This document shows, piece by piece, positions 178-54,083 of a stretch of DNA of 64,000 bases (position 1 is its first letter; each line of letters starts with the position of its first letter). The notes below the pieces were generated by a model, which was not told the DNA's origin, searched no databases, and worked only from the letters and a program-made list of their open reading frames with translations. Made by a program: the position numbers and the translations under genes. Origin of the DNA: Kiritimatiellota bacterium (GTDB lineage Bacteria > Verrucomicrobiota > Kiritimatiellia > Kiritimatiellales > Tichowtungiaceae); assembly GCA_014381785.1 (NCBI GenBank), contig JACNKZ010000051.1:1-64000 (forward strand), in the 5' to 3' direction.

Positions 178-193
178 TCCAACCATTGGAAAA
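178..193. repeat. dispersed dyad copy, centre CCA
   Basis: CCAA-CCA-TTGG core with the full right arm (TTGGAAAA) and a shortened left arm. Intergenic. Confidence 0.75.
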
Positions 194-237
194 CCCACCC
201 CGGCCTTCGGCCACCCCTCCAGTGGAGGGGAACCTGA

Positions 238-254
238 TTTTCCAACCATTGGAA
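238..254. repeat. dispersed dyad copy, centre CCA
   Basis: TTTTCCAA-CCA-TTGGAA, intergenic, about 45 bases from the previous copy and with the same centre. Confidence 0.8.
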
Positions 255-368
255 GCTTCAAGGAGGAAGCCTTCGCGGGCGTTATAGCCCGGGCTTGCCG
301 CTGTGAAGAGGCAGGGATGCCTCTTCCACTATTTTGATTCGTGTTGATTCGCGTGATTAGCGATCTAA

Positions 369-396
369 TAAAAAAGGCGGGGTCGCGGACCCCGCC
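369..396 (-). terminator. intrinsic terminator of glyS
   Basis: A 9-bp GC-rich stem (GGCGGGGTC/GACCCCGCC, loop GCG) at 376-396. Read on the minus strand it is followed by a run of six T and further T-rich sequence, about 40 bases past the glyS stop. Confidence 0.85.
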
Positions 397-52162: not shown

Positions 52163-52283
52163 AGGATTTCCTGTTCGTTTAAAATGGGCAGACAGCAAAT
52201 CGCTTTTCAGGAAATGAAGCAACCCCAAACGGTGAGAAGAGGGTTTTCTGGCAACCGGTACAGAGGCACAAAGCCGCTATTTG

Positions 52284-52302
52284 TTTCCAAACCTTGGAAA
52301 AA
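52284..52302. repeat. dispersed dyad copy, centre ACC
   Basis: Between divergent icd and the glycosyltransferase gene, 33 bases before the latter's chosen start. Confidence 0.88.
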
Positions 52303-52334
52303 TTGATTCGGAAAGCGCGGCGCCGGAGGGCATG

Positions 52335-54083
52335 ATGAGCCCCAAGATGAAACGAACGGGTTGGACTTCTCTAGTTGTATTTGCGGTCGTGCTGAGTGTG
52401 CTGCTCAGCGCGGCTAATCTGTTTCTCGGCGATCTGAATCAGGACGAGGGGTGGTATCTATATGCCGCGCGTCAGATTACAGAGGGTCGTGTGCTCTACC
52501 GCGACTTCATGTTCACGCAAGGTCCGGCACTGCCGTATGTGTACGGAGTGCTTTTTCCAATCATTGGAAAACTCGGTGTTGCCGGCGGACGGCTGATTAC
52601 ATCGTTGTTCGGTCTGGCGTCTGTCGGTTGCGCGGCGTGGCTGGCCTTTCGTTCGGCCAAGCGATTTCAAAAGACAGCGGCGTTGTGCGCACTGATTCTG
52701 GCGGGCGTGAATGTGTATCAGAGTTATTTCACGACGATAGTGAAGACCTACGGTTTGTGCGCGTTTTTCCTGACGGCGGGTTTTGTGGCGTTGAGCTATG
52801 CGAATAGTAAACGCGGGGCGATGGCTTCGTTCTGGGGCGGTTTTCTGCTGGCGCTGGCGGCCTGCACACGCCTTTCGGCCGGTATTGCACTGCCCATTGT
52901 CGGGATTTGGCTGATTTGCAACCGCAAGAAGGTTTACCCCTTCGGGGCAAACTCTGTGGGAGGTGGAATGTTGAATGTGAGAGGTCAGGTTCAACGTCCC
53001 ACATCCCACTTCTCACGTTTCACAACTCTCCCCGCCTGGGTGGCGTTCGGGTTGGGCGGTGGTTTTATTCTGCTGATCGGGCTGGCACCCTTTTTCCTGA
53101 TGGCTCCGGAAAATACGCATTTTGCTTTATTTGGTTATCATGCAGGTCGCTCGCCCGGTGGAGTGATAGAGCTGGCGGCGCTGAAGGCCGGGTTCGTTTC
53201 TCGCTTTGTGCAGGCCTATTTCATTTTCGCGGCGGGGTGTGTTGCGGCCTTTATTTTCCGGAAGCATCACAGTCACATTCGCGAACGCGATCTATCCGGG
53301 CCGGACAGCCGTCCGCGTTTGACGGAGCTTTTGCAACAGGCCAATCAGAAGGAGTCTCCATTTACGCATAGCTTTATTTCGCTACTTTGGATGGCGGGGC
53401 TGGGGATTACGCTGGTTCATTTCGCGGCGCCATTTCCGTATGACGATTATCAGGTGATTGTTTTTCCGGTGTTGTGCGCCGCGCTGGCCGCCACGTTGAT
53501 CCCGCGCTGTCCCGAAAAACAGTTGGTGCGCACGGCGTGGGCCGTGTTGCTGATTTCGACAGCCGCCTCATTTTCGTCGCCGATCAATCAGAACTGGATG
53601 GTTCGCGGGCGCGACCGGATCTGGTGGAAGTTTAAGGAGACGCCCGATTTGATGGCTCTGCAGAAGGCGGGGGCGCAGATTCGAAAAGAGCTGGGCGAGG
53701 ACGGGCTGCTGCTGACGCAGGATACGTATCTGGCGGTCGAGGCGGGCGCTCGCGTTCCGCACGGAATGGAGATGGGGCCGTTTTCCTATTATCCGGATCT
53801 ACCGCGCGAGCAGGCGGAGCAGTTGAACCTGCTCAACAAGGAAATGCTGCTCGAAACGCTGTCACGCGCCCGTGCGCCGATGGCGGCCATCAGCGGCTAC
53901 GGGTTGACGATCCGTTCGCCGGAGGTTGCCGAGCTTTCTTCCAATGATTGGAAGGCACTGCGGATGGCTCTGGAAAAAAACTATATCAAGACTGACGAGG
54001 TTGAACATTTTGGGCAGGCCCACACTACGCTCGAACTATTCGAGCGAATCCCGAAACTCGAAACCCGAATCCCGAAAAAATGA
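52335..54083 (+). CDS. GT39-like membrane glycosyltransferase
   Basis: An ArnT/PMT-like integral membrane transferase that uses a polyprenyl-phosphate sugar. DLNQDEGWYLYAARQITEG is the first periplasmic loop with the catalytic Asp-Glu; about ten transmembrane segments and a soluble C-terminal part follow. ATG 52335 sits five bases after GGAGGG. Dyads encode FPIIGK (52552-52571) and SNDWK (53939-53953). Residues about 206-232 (NSVGGGMLNVRGQVQRPTS) come from a hairpin-forming insertion between two transmembrane helices. The C terminus RIPKLETRIPKK is read from a CCCGAAACTCG simple repeat. Overlaps the next gene by ATGA. Confidence 0.85.
   Translation: MSPKMKRTGWTSLVVFAVVLSVLLSAANLFLGDLNQDEGWYLYAARQITEGRVLYRDFMFTQGPALPYVYGVLFPIIGKLGVAGGRLITSLFGLASVGCAAWLAFRSAKRFQKTAALCALILAGVNVYQSYFTTIVKTYGLCAFFLTAGFVALSYANSKRGAMASFWGGFLLALAACTRLSAGIALPIVGIWLICNRKKVYPFGANSVGGGMLNVRGQVQRPTSHFSRFTTLPAWVAFGLGGGFILLIGLAPFFLMAPENTHFALFGYHAGRSPGGVIELAALKAGFVSRFVQAYFIFAAGCVAAFIFRKHHSHIRERDLSGPDSRPRLTELLQQANQKESPFTHSFISLLWMAGLGITLVHFAAPFPYDDYQVIVFPVLCAALAATLIPRCPEKQLVRTAWAVLLISTAASFSSPINQNWMVRGRDRIWWKFKETPDLMALQKAGAQIRKELGEDGLLLTQDTYLAVEAGARVPHGMEMGPFSYYPDLPREQAEQLNLLNKEMLLETLSRARAPMAAISGYGLTIRSPEVAELSSNDWKALRMALEKNYIKTDEVEHFGQAHTTLELFERIPKLETRIPKK
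52552..52571. repeat. dispersed dyad copy in GT39-like gene, centre TCA
   Basis: Full copy; read FPIIGK. Confidence 0.92.
52956..53016 (+). repeat. hairpin insertion in GT39-like gene
   Basis: GTGGGA/TCCCAC, GTTGAA/TTCAAC and GTGAGA/TCTCAC pairs can fold this stretch. It is in frame and lies in a cytoplasmic or periplasmic loop. Confidence 0.5.
53939..53953. repeat. dispersed dyad copy in GT39-like gene, centre TGA
   Basis: TTCCAA-TGA-TTGGAA; read SNDWK. Confidence 0.9.

Follow-up and report, generated by a model that had tools for sequence, protein, structure and literature searches.

A helically phased dyad dispersed through coding and intergenic DNA of Kiritimatiellia genomes

Most nucleoid proteins bind loosely, and their places of action are hard to read from sequence. 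The matS sites of E. coli (GTGAC-RNY-GTCAC, about 23 copies) lie in the terminus region only and are recognised by a dimer, MatP, that bridges distant sites. In other systems the sites are more widely dispersed. For instance, CdbA of Myxococcus xanthus is a ribbon-helix-helix nucleoid protein with about 570 ChIP peaks chromosome-wide, which bends DNA and has little effect on transcription (PMC7156744). Lrp-type regulators occupy 13-17-bp inverted repeats that are degenerate, have an AT-rich centre, and cluster two or three turns apart (PMC2995911). The HIP1 palindrome is abundant, also in coding DNA, originates by point substitution, and has a patchy distribution among lineages in which alternate palindromes replace one another (PMC4390886). 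A literature search found no paper on the motif described here or on a Kiritimatiellia nucleoid protein.

The dyad and its sites in the window

The window is a stretch of 64,000 nucleotides from a Kiritimatiellota bacterium (assembly GCA_014381785.1, contig JACNKZ010000051.1, positions 1 to 64,000). The relatives of one protein encoded in it assign it to the Kiritimatiellales, an order of the class Kiritimatiellia in the phylum Verrucomicrobiota. The original prediction, made by eye, was of at least 26 copies of a dyad core where about one would be expected by chance. There are 27 exact copies of CCAANNNTTGG, at positions 179-53951, and 100 dinucleotide shuffles of the window gave a mean of 1.29 and a maximum of 3. 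The constant arms, the 16 centre values, and the unrelated flanks that had been described all hold for these 27 sites. The proposed extension is borne out in 20 of the 27, which reach TTCCAANNNTTGGAA, but the full 19-base TTTT...AAAA form occurs in only about 8. The 3-base centre, in contrast, is not free as had been supposed: all 27 sites have C or G in its middle position. The same N-S-N pattern is seen at all 100 core sites in 335 kb sampled from the window genome (G000), at 76/76 arm-exact sites of sampled G000, and at 199/209 arm-exact sites in the congener G009. A-tracts flank the dyad. The finding itself is real, and is stronger than first claimed.

The intergenic sites include two copies of CCAACCATTGG 63 bp apart (179-189 and 242-252), CCAATGGTTGG at 8990-9000 with weaker sites 31 bp to either side (8956 and 9018), and CCAATGCTTGG at 41627-41637, which is 31 bp from CCAATGATTGG at 41658-41668; the latter is followed after 64 bp by CCAAAGGTTGG at 41722-41732. 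Both CCAAACCTTGG at 14409-14419 and CCAAACATTGG at 35324-35334 are intergenic with a weaker partner at 31 bp, and their clusters are kept in G009, beside yebC and a lemA-like gene, respectively; clusters beside gltX and others likewise hold position between G000 and G009. A second CCAAACCTTGG, at 52287-52297, is intergenic with divergent genes on either side.

Other sites lie within identifiable genes: CCAATGGTTGG at 7668-7678 in an RND efflux gene, CCAAAGATTGG at 27450-27460 and CCAATGCTTGG at 27721-27731 in the NAD synthase gene, and CCAACCATTGG at 39376-39386 in an HrpB helicase gene. Further coding sites are CCAACCTTTGG (10736-10746), CCAAGGGTTGG (22627-22637), CCAATCATTGG (31760-31770) with CCAAGGATTGG (31782-31792) 22 bp away, CCAAACGTTGG (34064-34074), CCAACCCTTGG (46949-46959), CCAATGTTTGG (48344-48354), and CCAATGATTGG (53941-53951). 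Several could be followed into congeners. Thus, the coding site CCAATGTTTGG at 23264-23274 is intact in the high-count congeners G002 and G003, CCAAACATTGG at 24325-24335 in G002, G003, and G009, and CCAATCATTGG at 52557-52567 in G010 and G009. The coding site CCAAGGTTTGG at 23504-23514 is intact in G009 with a different centre, and CCAATGCTTGG at a gene start (45853-45863) is intact there with the centre ACA. Similarly, for the coding site CCAAACATTGG at 48626-48636, G010, G002, and G011 keep the arms with three other centres.

In 32 site comparisons across the five highest-count congeners, the arms were on average 0.87 identical to those of the window, as against about 0.72 for the flanks, while in the five lowest-count congeners the arms (about 0.72) were no better conserved than the flanks (0.71); the test is small, with 57 comparisons over the two groups. 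In aligned congeners, centres change while arms persist, sites come from existing near-matches such as TTCCAGNNNCTGGAA by substitution, and no indels were seen in intact sites. Sites therefore originate by point substitution, not by insertion or copying. This agrees with the earlier view that the dyad is not a recent copy-paste of a longer element, as do the unrelated flanks and spacers.

Two other features of the window were recorded. The 1491-aa protein encoded at 4473-8948 (+) joins an AcrB-type RND pump (residues 2-1022) and OEP domains (1305-1484), such that pump and outer-membrane channel are fused in a single chain. Words of about 40 bp at 48902-48954, 49010-49053, and 49252-49300, including CCCTTCGACAAGGCTCAGGGCAGG (within a gene) and TTCCGTGTTTTCAGTGTGTTCCGTGG, are found again in many congeneric genomes and constitute further dispersed repeats.

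Abundance, placement, and lineage variants

The window genome (2.22 Mb in 88 contigs, 98% complete) contains 729 copies of CCAANNNTTGG compared with 60 of a reversed control, and 595 of the 15-mer TTCCAANNNTTGGAA compared with 1; the genome-wide count had been put forward as a test that could overturn the prediction, and it did not do so. The dyad also extends to the rest of the chromosome, the other point on which the prediction had been staked. In the complete chromosome of the congeneric G009, sites are spread evenly round ori and ter without bias toward either, and are not confined to one domain in the manner of matS/MatP. Intergenic site density is 3.4 times that of coding DNA, clusters are 6-7 times denser between genes, and over half of all sites are within coding DNA, these fractions being approximate because gene calls came from a simple in-house ORF scorer. 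A comparison of gap orientations found no preference for divergent, promoter-bearing gaps. There is some excess directly downstream of stop codons, and the genes that lie behind clusters are a mixture of housekeeping functions. One stretch of G009, near 100-300 kb, is poor in dyads (four 20-kb samples without any and a fifth with two) and carries many sulfatase and surface-protein genes; it is probably accessory, and seems to be DNA that has not acquired the code.

Within the genus, TTCCAANNNTTGGAA counts range from 62 to 793 per genome, and elsewhere in Kiritimatiellia from 0 to 1339, whereas other Verrucomicrobiota classes are at background (5 or fewer). The trait is thus patchy within Kiritimatiellia. 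Named isolates have it, with 1177 copies in Pontiellaceae B1224, 1132 in B12227, 640 in B12219, and 376 in Pontiella sulfatireligans F21. Motif-poor genomes have few clusters; those left (L143, L144, and L146) adjoin a PIN toxin, a SMODS-type nucleotidyltransferase, and a type III restriction system, suggesting that they are DNA imported from motif-rich relatives.

Some genera without CCAANNNTTGG have sister dyads instead, TTTTCCAYRSYRTGGAAAA and TTTTCCGANSNTCGGAAAA, which share the same outer arms, an S-rich centre, and 22/30/31-bp arrays. The first clue came from a 'zero' sister genus, where TTTTCC-N7-GGAAAA-like sites lie 22 bp apart upstream of a gene; only after this locus had suggested them were the variants looked for, by an outer-arm search. 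Outer-arm copies number 237, 155, and 178 in three species of genus g27 and 17 in a fourth, 201 in g23, 124 in g64, and 117 in genome G195, as against 0-1 for controls; many other Kiritimatiellia families have 0-5. In g27 and g23 the inner part reads AY-RSY-RT (central S in 234/237 and 200/201), and in G195 it reads GA-NSN-TC (central S in 89/117). Change is therefore concentrated at positions 2 and 3 from the centre, with the outer arms, the spacing rules, and mostly the centre itself preserved, as would be expected if a protein family had shifted its specificity. Arrays of the AY/RT type (L452, L447, and G113:C10) often end in a CACACTGTGG-type site at 22 bp, their inner sites, 30-31 bp apart, being CACGCTATGG; an end-cap grammar is possible.

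Phased arrays also occur on Mu-like phage contigs, namely L470/L474 (one 18.9-kb contig), L480 (five sites), and L478 (two sites), and prophage terminase genes in G000 and G009 bear clusters. Phages of these hosts thus share the code. Two of the Mu-like contigs have a small HTH gene with sites at its end or downstream. Single-site matches in viral contigs look like chance.

Helical phasing and arrays

Distances between adjacent sites were analysed in sampled G009 and G000 DNA, mostly outside long arrays, using sites with up to 2 mismatches that were 18-200 bp apart. The neighbour distances have a period of 10.45-10.5 bp in both genomes. Treating pairs as independent, the Rayleigh test at 10.5 bp gave R=0.84 for G009 (n=150, p about 1e-46) and R=0.82 for G000 (n=54, p about 2e-16). 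When the 31/32-bp pairs were left out, the phasing persisted (p about 1e-27 and 6e-7, respectively), and it was present both in coding-coding pairs alone (n=97, p about 1e-28) and in intergenic pairs alone (n=87, p about 5e-29). The signal is strong up to about 150 bp and less so from there to 200 bp. Around 275 exact sites, partner distances peak at 22, 31, 42, 52-53, 63, 73, 82-83, 115-116, and 125 bp.

In several families, three to seven sites form arrays with steps of 31/32 bp or with the succession 22-30-31-31-31-22. Spacers of adjacent units resemble each other no more than unrelated spacers do (0.287 vs 0.288), and tandem duplication is thus not the cause. At the level of single genomes, the arrays of G200 have unrelated spacers, and those of G057 (L148-L152) share spacer words such as CTTATAGAAAAAC between separate arrays in a mosaic pattern. 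Triple arrays were absent from the three Pontiella genomes tested (G014, G018, and G025) despite their 245-1177 sites, whereas other motif-rich genera have them. Numerically, phasing is therefore established for one genus only; in the arrays of other genera it was seen by eye.

A putative architectural protein and its alternatives

The reading that best fits these patterns, to which a probability of roughly 60% is given, is that the dyads are sites of a putative dimeric, cooperatively assembling DNA-binding protein that would wrap or bridge the chromosome genome-wide. A single such protein would read TTTTCCAA-NSN-TTGGAAAA as a dimer, and dimers bound at neighbouring sites would touch one another. 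If so, sites would work when on the same face of the helix, with two, three, or four turns preferred and a reach of up to about 200 bp, and the resulting complex would wrap or loop the DNA. Since the sites are chromosome-wide, both coding and intergenic, and without promoter bias, the role is most likely chromosome-wide as well, and would lie in nucleoid organisation or insulation, not in the control of a single regulon. The half-site specificity would have drifted between lineages (inner AA/TT, AY/RT, or GA/TC) without a change in the outer arms or the spacing rules. From the phasing, the arm conservation limited to high-count genomes, the substitution origin, and the lineage variants of the same architecture, we infer protein binding, cooperation between dimers, and an architectural role. 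The same evidence favours the original prediction of a selected protein-binding dyad, comparable to HIP1 in abundance yet neither HIP1 nor an uptake sequence.

A bolder proposal, put at somewhat less than an even chance, is that this is a sequence-programmed bacterial chromatin, in which a putative protein specific to the lineage assembles, in helical phase, into nucleosome-like or bridging complexes at hundreds of strict coding and intergenic sites, under a code rewritten between genera. Where a chromosome-wide protein complex would sit, at what spacing, and on which face of the helix appear to be written in the genome here, and neighbouring genera and phages offer natural variants of that code. 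If true, bacterial chromosome folding would be readable, and its rules testable, from sequence; the proposal also bears on why some genomes accumulate highly iterated palindromes. The named isolates listed above provide cultured hosts.

Several candidate binders were considered and rejected. An Lrp-type protein was found in 46/48 genomes tested, but its ortholog is mostly single-copy and occurs in motif-rich and motif-free genomes alike, its recognition helix differs among genomes with an identical motif, and its own promoter has no exact dyad. In phylogenetic profiles of the ParB/Noc/KorB group, chromosomal ParB was likewise present regardless of the motif, with no motif-only paralog, and a histone-fold protein was found in 0/40 genomes, with control archaea positive. 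Neither a recurrent regulator family beside clusters, as might mark an autoregulated binder, nor an evident regulator among the genes behind them was seen. For the HTH proteins encoded next to arrays on Mu-like phage contigs, sampled host DNA has no relatives. The earlier wording of a site maintained by an unknown process stands insofar as the Lrp/AsnC, ParB, and histone-fold profiles yielded no binding protein.

Other explanations account for part of the evidence. A global feast/famine regulator of the Lrp/AsnC type, with dimers on inverted repeats that cluster at two- or three-turn distances, DNA wound round an octamer, and many genes controlled, is unlikely: although site length, 5-3-5 geometry, and spacing agree with the review (PMC2995911) and the protein is widespread, its ortholog does not track the motif, the sites lack promoter bias and are over half coding, and the dyad has C or G where Lrp-type sites are degenerate and AT-rich. 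Slightly less probable again is a HIP1-like palindrome kept by an orphan DNA methyltransferase together with its repair or conversion machinery. The dyad shares with HIP1 its abundance, coding presence, substitution origin, patchiness, and alternate palindromes (PMC4390886), there being a strong excess in both coding and intergenic DNA and alternate forms in relatives without the main one. However, methylation does not explain the 10.5-bp phasing, which reaches 200 bp, the fixed 22/31-bp arrays, or the A-tract flanks. Methyltransferase-type maintenance is the rival most in need of methylation data.

That the sites are operators or silencers of mobile-element repressors ('stoperator'-like), spread through the chromosome from, for example, Mu-like phages, is quite improbable. 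The phased arrays on Mu-like contigs and the typical mobile genes adjoining the few clusters of motif-poor genomes speak for it, but hundreds of sites are in conserved core genes, those examined keep position between species, and the sulfatase-rich region of G009 is poor in sites. A DNA uptake sequence for natural transformation would likewise be abundant, strict, and both coding and intergenic, yet uptake signals need no palindrome with helical phasing between copies, and variant switching with a fixed array grammar would go unexplained, which makes this highly improbable. Copy-paste repeats (REP/BIME/MITE-like) and RNA hairpins such as terminators are the least credible, despite the palindromic form, the 3-7-copy arrays, the spacer words recurring between G057 arrays, and some excess directly past stop codons. 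The flanks are not conserved, spacers are unrelated, orthologous sites differ by substitution and not insertion, and no longer stretch common to the copies was found; the RNA hairpin would be weak (-5 to -7 kcal/mol), and its U-run would stand at the start and its A-run at the end, opposite to an intrinsic terminator, in which a stem is followed by a U-run.

Overall, the proposed dyad system resembles Lrp-type complexes in geometry and spacing and CdbA in layout, a likeness that need not reflect relationship. With Lrp/AsnC complexes it shares 13-17-bp inverted repeats, two- or three-turn clusters, and, if the preferred reading is right, wrapping (PMC2995911); theirs, however, are degenerate, AT-rich, and at regulated promoters, and the only Lrp here occurs with and without the motif. 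CdbA similarly has sites over the whole chromosome, within structural genes and enriched between them (PMC7156744), but its moderate specificity is for a direct repeat, in contrast to a strict dyad recognisable from sequence alone. HIP1 and the alternate HIPs of cyanobacteria are also class-patchy, chromosome-wide palindrome excesses that are replaced in some lineages (PMC4390886), although HIP1 is an 8-mer tied to methyltransferases, and the dyad is 15-19 bp long with a variable centre, A-tract flanks, and phased clusters and arrays. The arm-3-arm geometry is that of matS, and dimer recognition and bridging are features of MatP; unlike matS, which is confined to the terminus, the dyads number in the hundreds, occur everywhere, and form helically phased pairs.
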